The position numbers and the translations under genes were made by a program. From Bacteroidota bacterium (GTDB taxonomy: Bacteria; Bacteroidota; Bacteroidia; Chitinophagales; Chitinophagaceae): a DNA stretch of 33,780 bases. Numbering within the stretch: position 1 is the first letter of the stretch; every line of letters begins with the position of its first letter. The stretch lies in NCBI GenBank assembly GCA_005789565.1, contig SXXL01000037.1:1-33780 (forward strand). The letters are read 5' to 3'. Of this stretch, positions 7,082 through 32,030 are shown one piece after another. A model generated the notes under the pieces. It saw nothing but the letters and a program-made list of their open reading frames with translations, was not told the origin of the DNA and searched no databases.

Positions 7082-9067
7082 TTAGGGTCCGTCACCACCC
7101 CACTGGCGCCTGAATTGAAGCGTAAATCCCGGTTGAACGGGCGTTCTAAGTCTCATAAAACGTTGATATTCAACATTTTTATCTATAAAAACTCGAAACC
7201 AGACGGTATGGTGCCGGCCCAGAGAGACCGAAAGGTTCAAATAGCCCCGCATTAATTGACCCTGAAAGGCCGGAAAACCGACTTTATATAATACATCCCG
7301 CTCGTAGGCATAGACCCGGCTTTCCCATCCATCCGTTGATACCCACATCCCGCGCAGGTCCAGTCCGATCCGCTCCGTAACCTCCCACCGCCACTCCAAA
7401 TAAGATAAGAACCCGTATTGCGGTGCCGCCGATCGCTGCAAAACCCTCACCCATTCCGCTCGCCAGCTCAAGGCTTCTTTCTCGCGCAGAGCGATCTGCC
7501 CATGCACCCGCACCGACCGGGTGGTGCGCTGATCGATCACCGGCATTCGATCCCCCGTATCATCCAATTCGCGGCGGACCGATTGAAAACGGATGTACAA
7601 ACTGTTTTTTTTATCCGGTTGATACTGCCACCGAAATCCACGCATCCACCCCACCGAGGGTAACCGCACCTGAGCACCGGGCTCGTCGGTCTGATAAACA
7701 TCCACAAATGCATCCACCGTGTGTTGCTCCTGCACGCGCCAGCGCAGCTGCGTATAATAGCCCAATTGCGACCGACCCGTTGCCAATTGCTGAAAGGCCT
7801 GCCCCTCTACCGATCGAAATCCCCTCTGGGTCCAGCGTGCCTGCATCGAAACATCCACGCGTCGATCCAACACCACCACCAAGCCCGCCACCGATGCCAG
7901 CCGTCCCTTGATATCAACCGCCGCCTCGCCGAAAAAATGCGCCGAGCCCCGCGTCAAAGAAAAATCCACACTTGCATTTGCCACCTGTCGAAACCAAGCC
8001 GTATCCCGATTGGTCAGATCGCTCAACTGAAAACGTGGAACTGACCAGGTCCGACCCAATGCATTCACATTGATCCGTCCCCCGGGAATCAACCGGCCGA
8101 TCCGTCCACCTGCCGTCCACTCCACCACGGCATTTTTCTTTTCCCACTCCGCAGCCGTTCGATGATGGCCCGAGATATCCAAACTCCGAAACCCACTACG
8201 ACCTTCCGAAATAGAATAAACAACGGCCGATTGCCCGCGACGCGACAGAAACCCATCCCACCGCCACCGTCCCATCGTCTTTCCCATCGCCACCCCTCGT
8301 AGGAAACGACTCTCACCCACCGATTGATAGGGCCTGACCGCCAAACCCTGTCGCTTCACCGCCGCCACCTCCGACCCCGCCCCAAAAGTCATCCCCTGCC
8401 AACCGATCAATCCCTGCCCCAGTTGAATCGTATAATCACCCAATAAACCGTATGATTTTTCCATGCGCCCGCGCCACTGCAAAAAACCACTCGCAAAATC
8501 GGGCCCCCTTTTGCCCACCCGCTCCCCCGCATCACTTTCCATCAACATTCCTCCCTGCCAACCGGCAGCTGACTGCACCCGATACCGAAGCAGTCGATGC
8601 ATCCGGCCCCCCAATACGTTTTTAGGAAGCTGATCGGCTCGCTGCCCGCTCAACCGTAACAATAAAAAATGTGCAGCCGGCTCTGAAAAGATTTTTTTAC
8701 CGGTAACCGATGCCGAACCCAATTTGCAATACACTTTGATCCTTGAAACCAACGATTCCGTCCAACCCGGCACCGATTGAAAGACATACCAGGAGTCGGC
8801 CGAACCAAACAATCCCCGAAATCGAATCCACCCATCGATCTGCAACGGTGTGAGCAAACCCAACTCGGCCAGCTCCTCCGCCGTGGCACGGTTCAAGTCC
8901 AACGGCCGCTTTCGATACTGATCCAATCGCAACTGCAACCCCTCCCATTCACCCGCGACTTCACTCGTCTGCTCATTCGATTGCCCCCACCGATCATCCC
9001 ATTCCGGCTCCTGTGCCGCCAACATCAGCCGCAACACCAAAAAAAATCCAACCCCTACCGCGCGCAT
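7082..9067 (-). CDS. Helix-hairpin-helix domain fused to an outer-membrane beta-barrel
   Basis: This 661-residue protein has a short signal peptide (to about AAQ19), then a helix-hairpin-helix module of the ComEA type at ~55-115: LDLNRATAEELAELGLLTP, then GWIRFRGLFGSADSWYVFQSVPG, which is a second hairpin. The remainder (~120-661) is made of alternating strands with W/Y/R-rich repeats and ends in an aromatic/charged strand (FTLQFRRQWGGDGP), as expected of an outer-membrane barrel. Such HhH-plus-barrel proteins are widespread in Bacteroidota but, to my knowledge, uncharacterised. The ATG at 9067 follows the stop of the preceding barrel gene by four bases, so they form one unit. In periplasmic ComEA the HhH binds DNA; whether it does so here is inference. 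Confidence 0.8.
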   Translation of the reverse strand: MRAVGVGFFLVLRLMLAAQEPEWDDRWGQSNEQTSEVAGEWEGLQLRLDQYRKRPLDLNRATAEELAELGLLTPLQIDGWIRFRGLFGSADSWYVFQSVPGWTESLVSRIKVYCKLGSASVTGKKIFSEPAAHFLLLRLSGQRADQLPKNVLGGRMHRLLRYRVQSAAGWQGGMLMESDAGERVGKRGPDFASGFLQWRGRMEKSYGLLGDYTIQLGQGLIGWQGMTFGAGSEVAAVKRQGLAVRPYQSVGESRFLRGVAMGKTMGRWRWDGFLSRRGQSAVVYSISEGRSGFRSLDISGHHRTAAEWEKKNAVVEWTAGGRIGRLIPGGRINVNALGRTWSVPRFQLSDLTNRDTAWFRQVANASVDFSLTRGSAHFFGEAAVDIKGRLASVAGLVVVLDRRVDVSMQARWTQRGFRSVEGQAFQQLATGRSQLGYYTQLRWRVQEQHTVDAFVDVYQTDEPGAQVRLPSVGWMRGFRWQYQPDKKNSLYIRFQSVRRELDDTGDRMPVIDQRTTRSVRVHGQIALREKEALSWRAEWVRVLQRSAAPQYGFLSYLEWRWEVTERIGLDLRGMWVSTDGWESRVYAYERDVLYKVGFPAFQGQLMRGYLNLSVSLGRHHTVWFRVFIDKNVEYQRFMRLRTPVQPGFTLQFRRQWGGDGP

Positions 9068-9071
9068 CGTT

Positions 9072-9908
9072 TCAATTTTTTTTATCCCGATGCCAGGTGG
9101 AAAAAAAAGAAAAAGCCGGACCCAAGACCGGATCCTGCGAAAAGCCTAGTCCCACCAAACCCCCTCGCAACCGGCGATGCACGCCCACGAGCAACTGGTC
9201 AGGCAGCCATCCCCAACCCAACTCCACACTCCACTCCCGGTTGAGTTGATAGGTTCCCCGAATCAGTGCCGCCGCCGAAGCTACCCGCTCCCAATCCACT
9301 CCCCCGTACAAACACAACTTCGATGAAAACGAATACGCGATTCCCGCCCGCACGCGCATCGGATTATTTCCATACCAACCTTTTTGCGTGAGCAACGCTT
9401 GCGGATTCTCCCAACTCATTCCCCAAACCGTTCGATCACCGACCAACCCGCCCAAAAAAAGATGACTGGTCGGCGACGCGCTCGTTCCATATCCTCGCAC
9501 CTGTGTCAGCGAAAATCCTAACCCCGTGCCCACCCAAACCGATCGACTCAACGCACGCACCAAACCCACTTGCCCATTCGTGCGACGATGAACGGCATCG
9601 CCCACCGTCACCGCATCCCACCGGATTCCATGCGCAGCTGAACGAATGTGACCGCCCGCCATCCACTCCGTCAACGCCCCTAACCCGTATCGATTTACGG
9701 CACCGCCGTACCAGCCCTGCAGGGAGCCGACCGAAAACCAGTTCGGCAACCAGATCAACCAGCGACCCGAATCACCCGCAACCGACCCTGGTCGAAAATG
9801 AAATCGACCGGCCTGACGAGAAAAACCTGGCTGCGCGCTCACCGAAAGATTCGGAAAAAGAAACACGATCCATATCAGAAACAGGAGTAGAAACAGATTT
9901 TTTGACAT
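9072..9908 (-). CDS. Small outer-membrane beta-barrel protein, unknown function
   Basis: The reading frame is open to 10145 but the real start is the ATG at 9908. It begins MSKNLFLLLFLIWIVFLFPNLSVSAQ, a signal peptide with AQ cleavage, giving 278 residues. The open extension would run through the folD promoter and start. The mature part is a run of amphipathic strands with Gly/Trp/aromatic pattern (FRPGSVAGDSGRW, WVGTGLGFSLTQVRGYG, LVGLGFSQDP) and a terminal FSFFSTWHRDKKN, fitting a 10-14-strand barrel of the kind seen in PorV/PorP-like proteins, though I cannot place it in a named family. A TATTTTG box lies five bases before the ATG. It is the first gene of the pair with the HhH-barrel protein and is divergent from folD. 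Confidence 0.7.
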   Translation of the reverse strand: MSKNLFLLLFLIWIVFLFPNLSVSAQPGFSRQAGRFHFRPGSVAGDSGRWLIWLPNWFSVGSLQGWYGGAVNRYGLGALTEWMAGGHIRSAAHGIRWDAVTVGDAVHRRTNGQVGLVRALSRSVWVGTGLGFSLTQVRGYGTSASPTSHLFLGGLVGDRTVWGMSWENPQALLTQKGWYGNNPMRVRAGIAYSFSSKLCLYGGVDWERVASAAALIRGTYQLNREWSVELGWGWLPDQLLVGVHRRLRGGLVGLGFSQDPVLGPAFSFFSTWHRDKKN

Positions 9909-13504: not shown

Positions 13505-14602
13505 GTGTCGGACTCCCTGTTGCACCGCATCGCCCTGACCCTTGTTCCACAGATCGGTCCCGTTCAAGCCCGCCTGTTGCTGCAACATTTTCAGCCGGAA
13601 GAGATCTTTCGCGCCAAACGTCATCAGCTGTTGCAGATCGAAGGCATCGGTACCGAAAGGGCCCAATCCATTCTTCGCTATCGGGATTTTAGCCGCGCCG
13701 AAAAAGAGATCCGATTCCTGGAGAAACGAAAGATCCGGGCACTGTCGATCGAAGAGCCCGACTATCCCAAGCGCCTACTGCACTGCTATGATCCGCCGGT
13801 GTTGTTGTATTACGGAGGACCAGCCAACCTCAACACCCCTCGTATGCTGGCGATCATTGGCACCCGATTGCCCACGGAATATGGGCGTGGATGTACCGAA
13901 CGCATCCTCGAGGAATTGAAAGATGCTTCGGTGACCATCGTCAGCGGACTAGCCGCCGGCATCGACGCCATCGCACACCGAGCCGCGCTTCGTCACCACC
14001 TCACCACGGTGGGCGTGTTGGCGCATGGATTGGATCGGATCTATCCCTATCAGCACCGAAAACTGGCTGCGGAGATGGAAGGCACAGGAGGGCTGCTCAC
14101 CGAGTTTATACACGGTACCGAACCGGATCGCTATCATTTTCCCGCCCGCAACCGGTTGGTGGCGGGCATGACCGATGCCACGCTCGTCATAGAGTCGGGA
14201 GAAAAAGGCGGAAGCCTCATCACGGCCTCGCTCGCCAATCAATACAACCGGGATGTATTTTCCGTTCCCGGCCGAATCGGCGATGAAAAAAGCATGGGTT
14301 GTTTGAAATTGATCCGGCAACATCAATCGGAGATCTTCCTCTCCACAACCGACCTGCTCGAACGGTTGGGATGGGATGATTCACCCGCGGAGAAAAAAAT
14401 CAGCCCCACCTTGTTTCCCGACCTGACAGAAGAAGAAAAAAAGATCGTGGATCATTTACAAAAAGGAAATACGCTGCACCAGGATCAGATCGGATGGGAA
14501 CTGAATATGTCCTCTTCGCAACTGAACAGCTGCCTGTTGCAACTTGAGATGAAAGGGGTGGTCCTATCTTTGCCGGGCAAACAGTACCGGTTGCCGGGTT
14601 GA
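13505..14602 (+). CDS. dprA: DNA-processing protein DprA
   Basis: DprA protects incoming single-stranded DNA and loads RecA during natural transformation. The 365-residue protein starts at GTG (MSDSLLHRIAL). Domains: an N-terminal helix-hairpin-helix/SAM-like part (~5-75, LTLVPQIGPVQARLLL and LLQIEGIGTERAQSIL), then the Rossmann-like core (~100-290) with VSGLAAGIDAIAHRAAL, VGVLAHGLDRIYPYQH, GGLLTEF, HFPARNRLVAGM and SGEKGGSLITA, and a C-terminal winged helix (~300-365, LTEEEKKIVDHLQKGN then MSSSQLNSCLLQLEMKGVV). All family signatures are present. A type B T9SS cargo gene follows 20 bases after its stop. Confidence 0.95.
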   Translation: MSDSLLHRIALTLVPQIGPVQARLLLQHFQPEEIFRAKRHQLLQIEGIGTERAQSILRYRDFSRAEKEIRFLEKRKIRALSIEEPDYPKRLLHCYDPPVLLYYGGPANLNTPRMLAIIGTRLPTEYGRGCTERILEELKDASVTIVSGLAAGIDAIAHRAALRHHLTTVGVLAHGLDRIYPYQHRKLAAEMEGTGGLLTEFIHGTEPDRYHFPARNRLVAGMTDATLVIESGEKGGSLITASLANQYNRDVFSVPGRIGDEKSMGCLKLIRQHQSEIFLSTTDLLERLGWDDSPAEKKISPTLFPDLTEEEKKIVDHLQKGNTLHQDQIGWELNMSSSQLNSCLLQLEMKGVVLSLPGKQYRLPG

Positions 14603-24644: not shown

Positions 24645-27600
24645 TTATTGTGCCAACGAGATACGCACCTGAACGCCGCCTCGGGTGTTGGTGATCGGGA
24701 AGGCGCTGCTGATCTTGGGTATGTTCCGATTCTGCTCGAAGTAGAGTTTGAGGTTGATCCGGTTATTCAATACATAATCGATCGAAGGTGCCAGGCGGAT
24801 CACCCGCTGGCCACCGGTACCAAAAGAGGTTCCCTGATCCAATTTGCTGTTGGAGGTGGCATCGTCGCGTAAACTGAAATCCATCCGGATCGTTACGTCG
24901 TTGTCGAGCTTCATACCGTTCTTGCCGATCTTGAGATTCTGGAAGAAGGGCAATCCCTTTTTGCGCCAGTTGAAGGCGAACGTATACTCCGTACTCTGAT
25001 TCTCGGCCAATTGATAGTCGATCAAACTCAAACTGAGTTGCCGGCTCTTGCGCCATTCGAACCGAGTCGTGATCTGGTTGGTGAAGGTCATATCCAATTC
25101 GATCAAGGGTTCAAACGCTTCCTGAATCGTGATGTTCGGTACCAGGAAATACGGCACGAAGTTTCCGGTGAGCGTGTCGCGGAAATACGGGAAGCCCACC
25201 CGCAACGGATCGGTGAACAGCAGCGCCGTATTGAAGCTGTTCATGCTCAAGGAACTTCTGTATCCGTGTCGGATGGAAAAATTCGTGAAGATCTTATCCA
25301 ATCCGGGTAGTCGCGACAACCCGTTATAGGTCAACTTCCAGTTGGGCAATGGCAACAGGCCGGCGAAGGGATTGGATCGAAGGGAAGGATTATTATTCTG
25401 AACTGATTTCACGCGCAACGGATCTCGATCGGTGTATGCTGCCAGGAAGGCCGGGATCACGACATCTTGTGCGTACCGACCATAGCCCTTGAAATAGCCA
25501 TCCGCATCGGTTCCGGATTGATAGGGATTGATGGAAGCGAGCTTGCCGGAGATGAGGCGACGGTTGGATTCAAACTGTTTAAAGGTTTGGGAGACCTGAT
25601 TCGGATCAAACGGCTCGAACAGGGTTTGGAAGGAGATATAACTGATGTTGAAGGATCCCATCGCATAAGGGTTCAGCCGAGCCAGTCCCGCAAAACCTGT
25701 TGTGTCTTTGTACAACTCCGAATACTGTTTATCAAAGGTCTTGTCCAGGTTCAGGTCGATGTTGAAATCCCGCAGCGGCGTAATCTGAGCGGTCAGGTTC
25801 AATCGCTGGTTGTAGCGTTGCTGGATCATGGCACTGACCAGCGAGTCGCGCGAGAGCAATCCCTTCGCCCCGAACCGATTGATCCAACTCGTATCGGGCT
25901 GATACCCGAACAGATAGGCAAGCCCCGGCTGTCCGCTTCGAAGGTTCGTGCCGAACAATACCGTGCTGTCCATATAGCCCGGAAGGGAGGTACCAAAATC
26001 TTCGGTGTATTGAATACCCACCCGCTTGAGGGATGTGGCCAGTTTGGCCACGAATTTGGGAACGGCACCGACCTCCGGCAACGGCTTCATGGCCGGGGGT
26101 ATGCGGGGCTTTTTGATCTTACGTTTTTTGATGCGAACGATCTTTCCTTTTTTATTGCGGATGGTATCGTAGCGGAATTTCGGTCCATCGTCTGATGACC
26201 CCATCTCTGAATTAGTCTGTGGCCGTCCACCCGATTTATCGGCCTTGTCGCGATTGGATCTTTCGCCGCCCGACTTATCGCCTTTCTTATCCTGACTGCC
26301 GGTGGGATCAAAATCGGGCTCGTTCGATGATTCGCTCGACCCGGCATAGACCGCCCGCAGGAAACGTGACTTGTTGTACAGGTCCTCAAATTTCAACTCT
26401 CCGTTCAGCGTTCGAGTCTGTGTGTTACTAAGCGTATTGCCAAGGGGTTTGGCCAACAGCGAGGCGGTTATCCAATTATACTTGGTGTTGTAGCTGGCGC
26501 GCAACGAGGTCCAACTGAGCAGCGGGATCTTATTGGTCGGCACATTGTAATTCAGCGTCACGTCCTGAGCGTAATTGGTATTGCGCCCGCCTTTGAAGAA
26601 ATTCGAACGAACCGAATCTTTTTTGGCATCTGTATCAATGCGCCCGGCCGGTTCGTCGATGCGCGCATTGTTGGTGGCATTGAAATCGATGGAAATGGAC
26701 CGGGTCAGGTTCCACTGAAGAATATAGTAGCGATCGAACGTGAAAAATTTATTGTAGGTCTCCGGTACCCGGTACGGGCCGCCTCCGATGTTACGGGGAC
26801 GCGTCGCGCCGAACTGACGAAACACATCCGCCCGGATGCTGATCTGAGACGGAGCGTAGTTGAAATTGAAATCCTTCAGCCAGGCCAACCAGGGAGAATT
26901 CGATTTGATCCATTTTTTGAATGGCTCCACGGGTTGCACCTGCGGTGCAAAGCTGTATCCGAGGGCACCGCGGGTTCGACGCATCTCATCGCGCTCGATC
27001 AACGGATTGTGGCTGATGGTTTGGATATACGAATAATTGAGATCGAAATTGGTGAGTGACCAAAGCTTGGGTTTCTTATCGCCCACCCGCAACTTCTTGA
27101 CATTGGTAAAATTCAAGGTCTTGATGGTGGTGATGTCCTGTGCATCGTTGCGAATGGAATCGCGCTTGTCCGCCTCTGCCAGACGCAACTTTTCCTTCAG
27201 GATCAGATCGAGGTCGTACGGATCATATTCGGGCGTGCTGCTGCGGTGGCTGATGGCCGCATACATGGGCAGTTGAAGTCCCACCTGCTTGGGCAACAAC
27301 TTGCCCAACTCCAGATTCAGGGAAGCGTCTACGGTGTACACGTCCTCCCGGCTGCGCTCATTCACCCGTTGCTCCAAGGTTCCAAACCCGCGCGAACGAG
27401 CCGTTCCCGACAACGATAGTGTTCCAAGATCGGCCAGCTTGATGTCGGTTCGGGCCAACGCCGACCACCCCCCTTTCTCATCCAATTGTTGCAAGCGAAG
27501 TTCATTGAACCAGACCTCCGTACACATTGCTTCCTGCGTGGTGTTCTCCACCCCCAAAAGCATCCCCCGCACCTCGCCCAGGTTCGGATTGCCGACGATG

Positions 27601-30600
27601 GCATACGATCGACCATTGGGCATTGTTTCCCGGTAGTAACGGGAAGGCGAAATGCCCAGTTTATTTCGCCGCGTCTTGAGATCGGTCAGCTCCGCCAAGT
27701 CAAAATCCAAGTTGTTGTCGGCCGGCCAGATCTTCAAACTGTCCCGCTCCCCAAAAGGCGTGATCTGGAGTGGGATCTTGACTTCATAATAGTTACCGGA
27801 GAAATCATTTCCGATCCGCACCACGGCGTTCAGTTCCCCGAACTGAATGGGCTGGGCTCCTTGCACACTTTCGGCATGCATGAACATCGAAAGCCGGGCA
27901 TATTGCCGCATGTCGATGTTCATATTCTTGAAAATAGCGCGCGACTCATTCATGGGCAATCCGCATACCTGCATACTCACCGCCTGCTCATTCAAAAACA
28001 GGGCTACGTTATTGTTGCTGAGCTGCTGCTGCCGTTCGATGCCCGGCGGGATCCGGTATACGATCGGTTGACGCTGATCATTCTCTTCCACATTCACAGC
28101 CAGCACGTTCACATTCACCGGATCCGGCAAGGGGATGGGCAGAAAATTACCGGAGGTATCGATGTTGTTCCGATACTTTCTCCATTGGTTGCGGACCAAC
28201 TCCAATTTTCCGAAGCGTAACACCACCGAATCCTGAAAACCGGTCATGAACATTCGGATAAACCGGATCGACTTGAAATCCGGGATATTGCCCACTTTTC
28301 GGGAATACTGCTCTACCGGGATCCGGAACAGATACCACCGCTCGGTGCGGCTCTGTCCGTTGGCCAGTGTCACCGTTGGCGTTCGAACATCCGTGATGAA
28401 ATTGGATCCCACGGCCATGTTCGGGAGAATGTCTACCCGATACTGGAAATATTCCTCCACCTCGTTCATGGTGTTGTCGCGGTTCAACTCCTCGGCATCC
28501 GGGTATTGGGTGAAGGCATTGACGAATTGACTGTTATTATTCGCCACCGGAGAGTTTCCGTGTGGGTTATTGATATTCTTATAGCGTTGCAAGATGCCGG
28601 CCACGGGCGACTGATCGAACTGCTCATCCCGATAGGCTTTGAAATTGTCGCCGGACGGATCGTTCAGGGCTTGCTGATAGATCCGGGAGCCGGCACCGAA
28701 AGTTGTTTGTAGGGTGTTCAAGTAGGACTGAAACTTGGTCTTCTCATTGGCATCCGTCATCCCATCAAAACCCACATCCTGATACTGACGATCGTCGGGA
28801 ATGGTACTGAAGGCATTGGTCACCTGCAGTGGAATGGATGGCACTTTGCCCCAATTGGTGGAGCTGTCGACCCGGGCATTGTTGGTGGGAGTAGGCAATC
28901 CGTTCTCGTACTGACGTTTTCCATCCCGCAGAATATCCTCGGATATATTACCGAGGTTGAAGTACAATTGTCCGCCCAGCGGATTACCATTATTGGCCAG
29001 GTACGGATCCTGTAACCAGAATTCGATATACTCAATGTTGCCCGTCTCAAAGTCGATCTGATCGATGTTGCGCATCAGTCCGCCCCAAGCCTGACGCGGA
29101 TTCAGCAACCGGCCATTCGCATCCACCCGAGCGTTGCGTGTCTCAAAATTATACGGCCCCCGATCTTTCGGATAAAAGGCCAGGTCGAATGTAGTCAGCA
29201 GCCCTTCGCCAAATTGCGTACTTCTTCGAGGGAAGATCTCTTTTTGGAGAACCTGTCGGGTTTCGGGTCGAGACAATTCATCCAAACTGTTTTGCAGGGG
29301 ATTGTTCGGGTTGCGTCGCTCCTGCAATACGGGCTCGATGTTGTACCAGGCCAGTTTGGCTCGGTTGTATCCCGAACCCAGGTCATTGCTCAGGGCCGAC
29401 TCCTGGAACAAACCATTGTTTTGCGGGATGGAGGCCAATGTCCAACTGATCAGTGGAAAGCGCAGGTCGATGCCGGCACGCGATCCTTCAAAATCATCGA
29501 GGTAAACCTGTCCCGACCGATCCCTGGATCCATCCGTATTCGTTCCGTTGATCTGACGGGCATGCCCGGGTTGCAAGACTGCCGCCTCCGCATACGAAGT
29601 GATCGAGGAGGGGGCCTTGGTCGAGTAGAAAGGAAGTTTATCGAGCAATTTGGTCAGTCGCGGCACTTCGCTGTTGTAATCCAGGTCGAATCCGTACATG
29701 GTATTTCGGATCGGATCTTCGCCATACAATTGTTTGATGAAGAAGGGACGTTCACCCAGTCGCACCACCGTTCCACCCAGCGTGAGTTTCTTGCTGGCCA
29801 GATAATCCAACCGCAGACCGAGGAAATTGCGTTGCTGAAAACCGAAGGCCTGGTTATTCTCGTAATTGATGTTGACGGGCACGCCGGAGCTGATGATAGC
29901 CTGGTTGATCACGCGCAGCGTACCCAAGTCGTAGTTGATCTCATAGTCTACGTTCTCGACGAGTACTTGTCCCCCGGCCGTCACCGTCACCGACCCGCGG
30001 GGAATATTGAAGCCCAATTGATATTCGGCTGTACCGCCGTTGCCACCCATGCCCCCGGCACCGCCCATGCCACCGGCACCACCCATACCCGAAGATTTGG
30101 AACGTCCTACGATCTTGAATCGATTGAGGTTCGCATAGGTCTGTGCGATGGCCTTGATGGTATCGTAAAGCGGATAGTAGAGGTATTTATCGCGGACCGT
30201 AGCGTTGGGGTACACGTACTCGAGATCTCGTCCGAAGGGTTCCAATACCGGAAAGATCACCCGGCTTTGCTGAGAGATCACGGTGAATCCTTCAATGAAG
30301 TCAAAGACCCCGTCGGGTTGCGGATCGTTTTGATTGTTGAGTCGGTCGAGGTTTACCAACGAAATAATGGGCTGTCCCTTGAACGGATCCACCACATCGG
30401 TCGGCGGCAGATAACGTTTCTCCCCTAAGCTGGGTTCCTCGTAGAGCAGATCGAGGGTGAAGTCCTGGCGTTCCAGTTGACCAAATCCCACTGAGTACAC
30501 ATTCTTCATCATCAGTTTCCAGATGGGCAGGTTGGTGCGTTGGGAGGTTGCCTTCAATAATTTCAAAAACAGGATCCGCTGCGAATTACCGGTGGTATCC

Positions 30601-32030
30601 GGTGGCACATCCTGTGAAAACTCACCGACCTGAAAGACGCGTCCGTTGTACGTATACTGAAACGCCACTCCCAACACTTCATCGGGCTGTAGCGGCTGAT
30701 TCAGGGAAATGAATCCGATCTGCTTGTTGAAATAATAATCGGTGGGCTGGAGTTTGCGGGCGAAGGTTTTTTCGAAATCCTGCACCGGGGCCAATCCCAG
30801 GTTATTCAATTCATTTTGTGTGAGCGAGGAGTTCCGGTAATTGGGGTTCGTGGTCAGGATCCGATACAAGTTGTTGGCATCGTTGCGGGGAAGCACATCG
30901 CCCGAGCCGGTCAGCAGCGGACTGTACGGATTGCGCTCACCCAAATCCATGAACCCCACCACATCCCGTGTATCGGTGGTGCTGCCGTTTCGGTTGGTCA
31001 CCCAGACCTCCACGCGAAGGATCTGTACCCGGGAGTTCACGATGGGCAATTGCTTCATCGCAGCGTTGTAATTCTTGTAGAAATATTCTCCCAGCAGGAA
31101 GTGTCGGTTCTCATCGTATTCGTCTGCTTTGAGCGAGAACCGCTGGGCCGTGGTACCGCCCTGCAAACCCAGGCTTTGCCGTTGCGATTGCTGGTTGGCG
31201 AGCACCGTGGTCACAAATAATTTTCCGAATTGCAACTGGGTTTTGATCCCGAACAGCGATTGGGCCCCGGGAATCAGCGTTCCCTTCGACGCAAAGGAGG
31301 TATTTCCGGCCTGGAATTGTCGAATGATGTCATCGTCCTTTCCCTTGAAATCCAATTTCAGTTGATTCTCAAAATTGAAATTGGCCAAGGTGTTGTAATT
31401 GATCGGAAGTTTGAGTTTTTCTCCGATCTGGGCATCCATCTGCAATTGGGAGTTCATGTTGAAATCGAACCCGCCGTTGCGGCGCGCCCGTTCGGGCAGG
31501 GTGGGATTGGCGATGTTCTGTCCCTGATACCCTGCGAGAAAATCGACATAACCCGACGGCTTGATCTCGATCTTCACTTTTCCGTCGGCGCCGGTTCCCA
31601 TGATGCGGTTGAACCAATCGTTCGACATGCGGTATTGGGGCTTGTCGAGCCGCCGGTTCATGCTAAAAAGCAAGTCGGCCCGCTGGCGGAAATAATCGAT
31701 CTCATCCTTTCGACTCTGCCAACGACGATATTCCTCGGCGCTGAGGGAGGTGGTGGGACGATACGCCCGGCTCCCCACTTTTTCGCTCAGGAGGTATTGT
31801 CCGCTGATCGGATCAAACTCGATCCGCCGACGCAAGTACCCGGTATCTCGAAAATCAAAGGCATGGGCACGACGACTCAAACTGAGCGGATCGCCATAGC
31901 GATCGTATAAGGGAAATCGAAGCGAGTCGCGGCGCGTGGAATCGGACCGGATCTGTCCGGCTGCCTCCCCGAGGAAGAAGGCCCATAAAAAAGGCCCGAT
32001 GAAAAAAATATGTGCGGTCCGAAGCTTCAA
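24645..32030 (-). CDS. sprA: T9SS outer-membrane translocon SprA/Sov
   Basis: SprA is the giant (2461 residues here; family ~2300-2500) outer-membrane barrel through which type IX cargo leaves the cell. The start is TTG 32030 (MKLRTAHIFFIGPFLWAFFLGEAAGQ, signal peptide); no ATG exists between the ruvA stop and here. Recognisable features include GTGADGKVKIEIKPSGYVDFLAGY near 140-180, SFASKGTLIPGAQSLFGIK, DQIDFETGNIEYIEFWLQDPY and long stretches of barrel strands towards the C-terminus, as in SprA of Flavobacterium. Two local oddities are a Gly/Met repeat at ~645-665 and a very basic low-complexity segment at ~1907-1983. It follows ruvA by 25 bases on the same strand, a conserved neighbour in this phylum as I recall. 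Confidence 0.96.
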   Translation of the reverse strand: MKLRTAHIFFIGPFLWAFFLGEAAGQIRSDSTRRDSLRFPLYDRYGDPLSLSRRAHAFDFRDTGYLRRRIEFDPISGQYLLSEKVGSRAYRPTTSLSAEEYRRWQSRKDEIDYFRQRADLLFSMNRRLDKPQYRMSNDWFNRIMGTGADGKVKIEIKPSGYVDFLAGYQGQNIANPTLPERARRNGGFDFNMNSQLQMDAQIGEKLKLPINYNTLANFNFENQLKLDFKGKDDDIIRQFQAGNTSFASKGTLIPGAQSLFGIKTQLQFGKLFVTTVLANQQSQRQSLGLQGGTTAQRFSLKADEYDENRHFLLGEYFYKNYNAAMKQLPIVNSRVQILRVEVWVTNRNGSTTDTRDVVGFMDLGERNPYSPLLTGSGDVLPRNDANNLYRILTTNPNYRNSSLTQNELNNLGLAPVQDFEKTFARKLQPTDYYFNKQIGFISLNQPLQPDEVLGVAFQYTYNGRVFQVGEFSQDVPPDTTGNSQRILFLKLLKATSQRTNLPIWKLMMKNVYSVGFGQLERQDFTLDLLYEEPSLGEKRYLPPTDVVDPFKGQPIISLVNLDRLNNQNDPQPDGVFDFIEGFTVISQQSRVIFPVLEPFGRDLEYVYPNATVRDKYLYYPLYDTIKAIAQTYANLNRFKIVGRSKSSGMGGAGGMGGAGGMGGNGGTAEYQLGFNIPRGSVTVTAGGQVLVENVDYEINYDLGTLRVINQAIISSGVPVNINYENNQAFGFQQRNFLGLRLDYLASKKLTLGGTVVRLGERPFFIKQLYGEDPIRNTMYGFDLDYNSEVPRLTKLLDKLPFYSTKAPSSITSYAEAAVLQPGHARQINGTNTDGSRDRSGQVYLDDFEGSRAGIDLRFPLISWTLASIPQNNGLFQESALSNDLGSGYNRAKLAWYNIEPVLQERRNPNNPLQNSLDELSRPETRQVLQKEIFPRRSTQFGEGLLTTFDLAFYPKDRGPYNFETRNARVDANGRLLNPRQAWGGLMRNIDQIDFETGNIEYIEFWLQDPYLANNGNPLGGQLYFNLGNISEDILRDGKRQYENGLPTPTNNARVDSSTNWGKVPSIPLQVTNAFSTIPDDRQYQDVGFDGMTDANEKTKFQSYLNTLQTTFGAGSRIYQQALNDPSGDNFKAYRDEQFDQSPVAGILQRYKNINNPHGNSPVANNNSQFVNAFTQYPDAEELNRDNTMNEVEEYFQYRVDILPNMAVGSNFITDVRTPTVTLANGQSRTERWYLFRIPVEQYSRKVGNIPDFKSIRFIRMFMTGFQDSVVLRFGKLELVRNQWRKYRNNIDTSGNFLPIPLPDPVNVNVLAVNVEENDQRQPIVYRIPPGIERQQQLSNNNVALFLNEQAVSMQVCGLPMNESRAIFKNMNIDMRQYARLSMFMHAESVQGAQPIQFGELNAVVRIGNDFSGNYYEVKIPLQITPFGERDSLKIWPADNNLDFDLAELTDLKTRRNKLGISPSRYYRETMPNGRSYAIVGNPNLGEVRGMLLGVENTTQEAMCTEVWFNELRLQQLDEKGGWSALARTDIKLADLGTLSLSGTARSRGFGTLEQRVNERSREDVYTVDASLNLELGKLLPKQVGLQLPMYAAISHRSSTPEYDPYDLDLILKEKLRLAEADKRDSIRNDAQDITTIKTLNFTNVKKLRVGDKKPKLWSLTNFDLNYSYIQTISHNPLIERDEMRRTRGALGYSFAPQVQPVEPFKKWIKSNSPWLAWLKDFNFNYAPSQISIRADVFRQFGATRPRNIGGGPYRVPETYNKFFTFDRYYILQWNLTRSISIDFNATNNARIDEPAGRIDTDAKKDSVRSNFFKGGRNTNYAQDVTLNYNVPTNKIPLLSWTSLRASYNTKYNWITASLLAKPLGNTLSNTQTRTLNGELKFEDLYNKSRFLRAVYAGSSESSNEPDFDPTGSQDKKGDKSGGERSNRDKADKSGGRPQTNSEMGSSDDGPKFRYDTIRNKKGKIVRIKKRKIKKPRIPPAMKPLPEVGAVPKFVAKLATSLKRVGIQYTEDFGTSLPGYMDSTVLFGTNLRSGQPGLAYLFGYQPDTSWINRFGAKGLLSRDSLVSAMIQQRYNQRLNLTAQITPLRDFNIDLNLDKTFDKQYSELYKDTTGFAGLARLNPYAMGSFNISYISFQTLFEPFDPNQVSQTFKQFESNRRLISGKLASINPYQSGTDADGYFKGYGRYAQDVVIPAFLAAYTDRDPLRVKSVQNNNPSLRSNPFAGLLPLPNWKLTYNGLSRLPGLDKIFTNFSIRHGYRSSLSMNSFNTALLFTDPLRVGFPYFRDTLTGNFVPYFLVPNITIQEAFEPLIELDMTFTNQITTRFEWRKSRQLSLSLIDYQLAENQSTEYTFAFNWRKKGLPFFQNLKIGKNGMKLDNDVTIRMDFSLRDDATSNSKLDQGTSFGTGGQRVIRLAPSIDYVLNNRINLKLYFEQNRNIPKISSAFPITNTRGGVQVRISLAQ
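30036..30089 (-). repeat. 18-bp tandem repeat inside sprA encoding GMGGAG units
   Basis: Three copies of an 18-base unit, with Met codons at 30050, 30068 and 30086 (minus strand), encode GMGGAG GMGGAG GMGGNG at residues ~648-665. It is a slippage-prone in-frame repeat in a surface-loop-like position, next to the PRGSVTVTAGGQV strand. Confidence 0.85.

Follow-up and report, generated by a model that had tools for sequence, protein, structure and literature searches.

A two-gene operon in a 33,780-nucleotide stretch of DNA from a Chitinophagaceae member of the Bacteroidota (assembly GCA_005789565.1, contig SXXL01000037.1, positions 1 to 33,780; hereafter, the window) encodes a small predicted outer-membrane barrel and a protein in which two helix-hairpin-helix (HhH) motifs are joined to a large predicted barrel, the HhH-barrel. 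On balance, and judging from comparative sequence analysis, this pair appears to form the outer-membrane part of a DNA-uptake system of Bacteroidota and Chlorobiota that lacks a secretin, an assignment made with considerable reserve. It is favored because comEC lies directly downstream of the pair in seven loci, because the pair is disrupted together with DNA-uptake genes in a related genome, because the large barrel is basic, and because no secretin was detected in 15 genomes of the same class. An earlier note on this DNA had proposed an outer-membrane pair handling DNA or another polymer; the DNA-uptake part of that proposal gains support, and it does so from the comEC linkage and the joint disruption better than from the arguments first offered for it, the proximity of dprA and the HhH motifs, both of which proved weak. 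The features of the operon are as follows.

9072..9908, minus strand: small outer-membrane barrel, 278 amino acids, FadL/PorV-like fold by prediction; operon gene 1
7082..9067, minus strand: HhH-barrel fusion protein, 661 amino acids; operon gene 2
8720..8905, minus strand: two HhH motifs, residues 55-116, with hairpins L69-I77 and V99-T103 lacking the canonical GxG
7100..8677, minus strand: predicted barrel, residues 131-656, about 24-26 strands; net charge of residues 121-661, +31

The two-gene arrangement described earlier was borne out: both open reading frames (ORFs) lie as placed, on the same strand and 4 bases apart, with the small barrel starting at an ATG at position 9908. The HhH-barrel begins with a signal-like N-terminus (identified by eye), followed by the two HhH motifs and a long beta region, and is present in a single copy in the window genome (G000; 1.88 Mb, 94% complete). 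Among 128 loci, a few of which represent the same contig counted twice, the small barrel lies directly upstream of the HhH-barrel on the same strand in 113, and a further five stop at a contig edge before its position. In the remaining 10, the small barrel is one ORF further away (L151), is joined to the HhH-barrel in one frame (L090), belongs to the deletion remnant described below (L056), or is absent (seven loci). Two ORFs were excluded from the small-barrel profile, one being nonhomologous (L045) and the other long and chimeric (L048). At the phylum level, the small barrel is upstream in 21 of 40 loci, and none was recognized beside the HhH-barrel in two Chlorobiaceae loci (L173 and L174). 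The pairing is far above chance, and the most frequent spacing across loci is a 4-base overlap. The single frame of L090 (9464-11938) holds both proteins.

A tblastn search of 170 loci with two ComEC proteins found comEC in seven, directly after the HhH-barrel in each case, and not in the examined stretch of the other 163. The seven comprise L162 (genome G059), L270 (G135), L271 (G176) and L272 (G192), together with Pedobacter psychrophilus (L152), a metagenome-assembled genome (MAG) named Pedobacter schmidteae (L156) and a Sphingobacteriales MAG (L147). The first four come from family f22, inferred from the Pedobacter loci to be Sphingobacteriaceae, in which four of five sampled genomes carry the HhH-barrel and all four show the linkage. 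Five of the six loci with all three genes (L152, L156, L147, L270 and L271) have them head to tail in the order small barrel, HhH-barrel, comEC, separated by -14 to +3 bases. The small ORF called in L272 stops 123 bases short of the HhH-barrel, and in G059 the HhH-barrel overlaps comEC by 10 bases and has no small gene beside it. The adjacency occurs in genera g33, g43 and g48 and in the named Pedobacter loci, with differing outer neighbors. The Pedobacter comEC gene scores 88.8 bits against the NCBIfam ComEC_N-term model (cut-off, 36.5) and 123.4 bits against the ComEC_Rec2 equivalog, below its cut-off of 190.

The gene dprA and the control gene sprA are placed in the window as follows; except for dprA, window genes were named by eye.

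13505..14602, plus strand: dprA, 365 amino acids, TIGR00732; context only
24645..32030, minus strand: sprA-like gene, named by eye, for the type IX secretion system (T9SS) translocon; control gene

The distance of 3.6 kb from the pair to dprA (which starts at 13505) was correct as noted earlier, but dprA proximity was rejected as evidence of DNA uptake. Although dprA is found in 61 of the 170 loci, 21 of these belong to genomes of f1, the family of the window, and the other 40 to named contigs, and dprA is on the opposite strand in all 58 loci with genes called; its proximity is therefore read as inherited gene order.

The second line of evidence comes from G023, a genome of the same genus as the window genome and rated 100% complete. 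Here, the pair is reduced to a deletion remnant in which residues 1-35 of the small barrel run into residues 428-577 of the HhH-barrel, followed by a frame change. In the gene for a ComEA-like triple-HhH protein, the frame shifts near residue 140 of 333; dprA is interrupted by a stop at residue 122 and changes frame near residue 205, and comEC has a stop at residue 415 of 482. In contrast, no stop was found in 17 neighboring genes, among them folD, queE, susC, susD, sprA, ruvA and lnt (the last read across two stretches); sprA is intact over 2461 amino acids at 93% identity. For a baseline, proteins from parts of G000 and of G013, another genome of the genus, were compared with about 360 kb of G023 using a codon-position filter, and a gene was scored as broken if it contained a frame change or a stop between 20% and 95% of its length. 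Six of 108 coding orthologs were flagged, namely the three DNA-uptake genes, one subtilase and two others (L225|4004 and an RsfS-containing ORF of L233) that look like N-terminal start artifacts. In G013, the pair and dprA have no stops and the comEA-like ORF is open over 299 amino acids. In G221, from another family, no match was found for ComEC, HHH_3 or the barrel, and DprA and ComM gave sub-cut-off matches only.

It could be argued that the small lesions in G023 reflect assembly or sequencing error or general decay, that the comEC adjacency is due to chance, and that the role of the pair is unrelated to DNA. This possibility draws on a single genome in which comEA-like carries one frame change, comEC one stop, and dprA one of each, and on the observation that comM looks split in further genomes too. 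It is nevertheless regarded as very improbable: the pair was lost by a large deletion and only one to three of 105 other genes were flagged, so random error would have had to strike these particular genes, and the adjacency to comEC recurs in g33, g43, g48 and Pedobacter loci whose outer neighbors differ.

Other candidate losses were not retained. Although comM is split in G023, it was not counted as a fifth broken gene, as it looks similarly split in G059, G180 and G057. In G180 (contig C1) and G057 (contig C18), comM/YifB seems to be interrupted around residue 350; the rest of the gene lies on the same contig at a distance of tens of kilobases, a pattern that could mark an island insertion site within comM. 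G014 and G025 were rejected as additional joint losses of barrel and dprA: G025 also lacks a folD match, probably because the contig concerned is missing, and in G014 a 53-amino-acid open frame retains a piece of the barrel. G049, with a partial barrel match, was dropped from the counts.

The third line of evidence is the charge of the large barrel. Across 126 loci, the barrel part has a median net charge of 3.9 per 100 residues, compared with 1.1 for the neighboring SusC-like protein, and is the more basic of the two in all 77 paired loci; medians for other neighbors range from -1.1 to 2.4. In a set of 40 barrels from across the phylum, the corresponding median was 2.25 per 100 residues. An AlphaFold2 model of the protein predicts helices followed by a barrel, with no recognized plug, and the TonB plug family was absent from the Pfam matches of 11 HhH-barrel members. 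The folds nearest to this model are those of ushers (Z 16.1), MtrB (15.4) and TonB receptors (15.0), which are effectively tied, while MtrB ranks first by Foldseek. Chaperone-usher pores and MtrB thus stand among the closest solved structures, but they share only 8-9% sequence identity with the barrel, and a specifically usher- or MtrB-like fold was rejected. Since TonB receptors score within about 1 Z unit, the likeness is nonspecific and no longer argues for a wide pore.

Fourth, a secretin (PF00263) was not matched in any of 15 same-class genomes carrying the HhH-barrel or its remnant. It was found in one of the two barrel-negative genomes of the class that were examined.

Several observations weigh against the DNA-uptake assignment. 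The comEC linkage, at seven of 170 loci, apparently represents one lineage. ComEC itself occurs in 79 of 80 genomes, a distribution that leaves its presence/absence profile without power as evidence; many of these genomes are barrel-negative, so the barrel is not required wherever ComEC is. Many barrel-negative genomes keep comEC, HhH proteins and dprA, and many of the same class keep ComEC and multi-HhH proteins. (The ComEC ORF of the window genome has 482 amino acids; the main ComEC domain profile in Bacteroidetes is DUF4131 plus Competence, according to the part of the source available [PMC6299819].) Outside the class, five of six barrel-positive genomes possess a secretin. The excess of broken DNA-uptake genes in G023 yields a Fisher p of 2e-5 (one of 105 others broken) to 1e-4 (three of 105) for comEC, comEA and dprA chosen on purpose; G023 is one genome, its lesions other than the deletion are one or two small changes of a kind that sequencing error can mimic, and the similar splitting of comM in G059, G180 and G057 adds to this doubt. 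Five of the 40 phylum-level barrels are net acidic, and the large-barrel model, with a mean pLDDT (predicted local distance difference test) of 71.7 and about 24-26 counted strands, is of moderate confidence.

The HhH module belongs on the same side of the balance. That a ComEA-like HhH region is fused to a large barrel was confirmed by profile searches, with the barrel itself a model prediction: the window protein (P0002) matches no Pfam family at E<=1, but 9 of 11 aligned homologs match HHH_3 (PF12836) at that threshold (best E, 3.6e-8), and the family profile retrieves chains of "ComE operon protein 1" (ComEA) in the PDB (8dss; E, 5.6e-5; profile positions 61-120). The two-HhH architecture is shared with ComEA, which serves in transformation as a DNA receptor, either periplasmic or membrane-anchored. 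In ComEA/HHH_3 proteins, the canonical GxG hairpins contact DNA. By alignment column, however, the GxG is found in none of 165 proteins at hairpin 1 and in four of 165 at hairpin 2, and the net charge of the module has a median of -1 (range, -6 to 6). DNA binding by the HhH itself is for these reasons doubtful. On sequence grounds, the module is ComEA-like in pattern and not in its DNA-contacting hairpins. The window genome additionally encodes a separate ComEA-like triple-HhH protein (a 333-amino-acid ORF) that, unlike the fusion, retains LPGIG in its middle repeat and scores 71.6 bits against TIGR00426 (cut-off, 53.1); all 12 triple-HhH ORFs inspected by eye have GxG in their middle repeat. 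With such a protein in the genome, the HhH-barrel is best seen as an addition to ComEA and not as ComEA itself. In G051 (L201:1707-4945), a multi-HhH ComEA-like gene adjoins comEC on the same strand with a 4-base overlap.

These properties lend some weight to another explanation, according to which the pair transports or exports a different polymer or a nutrient and the HhH serves only as a protein-protein docking element. Hairpins without GxG in a near-neutral module, TonB-receptor barrels scoring as high as ushers, a FadL-type partner and a wide taxonomic spread would all fit such a transporter. It is nonetheless considered unlikely, given the comEC linkage and the joint disruption with three DNA-uptake genes; moreover, no substrate-utilization gene was recognized by eye among clusters recurring in at least three of the 40 diverse loci, and the SusC/SusD genes downstream of the pair in the window reflect a Chitinophagaceae-type gene order.

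The small barrel raises a further difficulty for the DNA-uptake assignment, namely its likeness to PorV. Its model, also of moderate confidence (pLDDT 63.5), matches FadL (Z 18.6, root-mean-square deviation [rmsd] 2.6 over 206), the T9SS entries 6h3i_F (Z 16.9, rmsd 3.0 over 218; taken by us to be PorV) and 8gl6_F (Z about 17), and chain 9n2d_B of a beta-barrel assembly machinery (BAM) entry (Z 15.8; presumably BamG), so that the small barrel is assigned a FadL/PorV fold by prediction. Structure prediction of both proteins, proposed earlier as a check, thus gave a FadL/PorV fold and a large barrel. By sequence, 7 of 10 aligned small-barrel homologs match the PorV/PorQ family (NF033709) at E<=1 (best, 4.1e-18), whereas the window protein had no NCBIfam PorV/PorQ match at E<=1.

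A component of the T9SS would account for these similarities, including the structural matches to 8gl6_F and 6h3i_F, and for another feature unfavorable to DNA uptake: in 18 of 40 phylum-level loci, spread over 12 families, a PorD-type gene adjoins the pair (e.g., L183:11165-12076). The PorD label denotes a BLAST cluster of which one member was tested by NCBIfam (201.6 bits; cut-off, 170). PorD is reported to be distributed in correlation with the T9SS, although deleting it in F. johnsoniae left T9SS activity without a detectable change (PMC10994853). A PorD-type neighbor is unexplained by DNA uptake. Nevertheless, a role in the T9SS is judged quite unlikely, because G023 (one genome) retains an intact sprA although its pair is deleted, seven loci have comEC after the barrel, all 18 PorD-type genes are encoded on the strand opposite the pair, and the Pedobacter small barrel, at 52.3 bits, falls below the PorV-family (NF033709) cut-off of 90.

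Comparison with known systems places the candidate DNA-uptake pair among outer-membrane machines with a FadL-superfamily partner. In the T9SS translocon, PorV sits beside SprA, and the pair resembles this arrangement in combining a large barrel with a partner of predicted FadL/PorV fold; it differs in that its large barrel, at about 24-26 strands, is far below SprA in size, and in that sprA is a separate gene, intact in G023. Similarly, the FadL-like BamG lies beside BamA in the Bacteroidota BAM complex, a FadL-like barrel partnering a larger outer-membrane machine, as far as the available text of that report goes (PMC12611786). Unlike BamA, the large protein gave no Omp85-type family among its matches. 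No description of the pair was found in the open-licence literature in a search conducted mostly at the level of abstracts.

A further comparison is with natural transformation in Riemerella anatipestifer, a case of Bacteroidota transformation involving outer-envelope genes that differ from the known pilus machinery. According to those parts of the report that were accessible (PMC8459023), a transposon screen identified other outer-membrane genes as essential, a result unfavorable to the present assignment: RA0C_RS04915, with a carboxypeptidase-regulatory domain (a beta-barrel according to its authors), and RA0C_RS04920, a DUF5689/DUF5017 protein, are not the HhH-barrel pair. The same source describes RA0C_RS02645, a multi-HhH periplasmic protein essential for transformation, which by description is similar in kind to the triple-HhH protein of the window genome. 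In a hand-made table, strong DUF5689 matches (E<1e-40) occurred in 17 of 19 barrel-negative compared with 4 of 11 barrel-positive genomes of the class (p 0.004, uncorrected for kinship), after exclusion of G014, G025, G049, G023 and 14 genomes outside the class from the 48 scanned. As a lead only, DUF5689 proteins possibly mark an alternative, SusCD-like uptake route.

The HhH-barrel is widespread. A first scan of genome contigs with a single protein as query found no relative; in a later single-protein search, the large gene or a remnant was detected in 48 of 58 genomes, including that of the window, and a 25-sequence profile found it in 178 of 198 phylum genomes, part of these being weak matches (E, 1e-4 to 1e-9) that probably reflect the HhH alone. 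Its range extends to family f35, taken to be Chlorobiaceae because the FMO protein was found in four of four f35 genomes tested. Chlorobaculum tepidum, a member of the Chlorobiaceae, is transformable. An HhH-barrel also occurs on a contig labeled as a Gammaproteobacteria MAG (L080:4-1692), which is probably misbinned or mislabeled. Between G000 and G013 (L031), identity is 49% for the large and 39% for the small barrel, compared with 88% for the adjoining folD and 91% for susC; by this measure, the pair evolves fast.

From the evidence assembled here, the pore function, the subunit contacts, DNA as the substrate and the following DNA path are inferred. DNA would cross the outer membrane through the large basic barrel acting as a pore, with the small FadL/PorV-like barrel as partner subunit, much as PorV accompanies SprA and BamG accompanies BamA. 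At the periplasmic mouth, the degenerate HhH may hand the DNA on, more likely by docking the separate triple-HhH ComEA-like protein anchored in the membrane than by holding the DNA itself. The triple-HhH protein would bind the DNA and direct it toward ComEC in the inner membrane, ComEC would move one strand inward, and DprA and ComM would act in the cytoplasm. More tentatively, and with the doubts outweighing the support, a secretin-independent basic pore with a FadL/PorV-type partner could be the gate for DNA uptake that is ancestral to Bacteroidota and Chlorobiota. It would be the phylum's third outer-membrane machine with a FadL-superfamily partner, after SprA-PorV and BamA-BamG, and a SusCD-like receptor would have replaced it in lineages such as the R. 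anatipestifer group.

These results bear on the means by which transforming DNA passes the outer membrane in bacteria that have neither type IV pili nor secretins. In the literature consulted, the sole genome-wide search of this phylum for such genes is the R. anatipestifer screen. If the DNA-uptake assignment is correct, a phylum abundant in guts, soils and waters would own a DNA-uptake pore, and gene transfer within it would be partly predictable from a two-gene marker.

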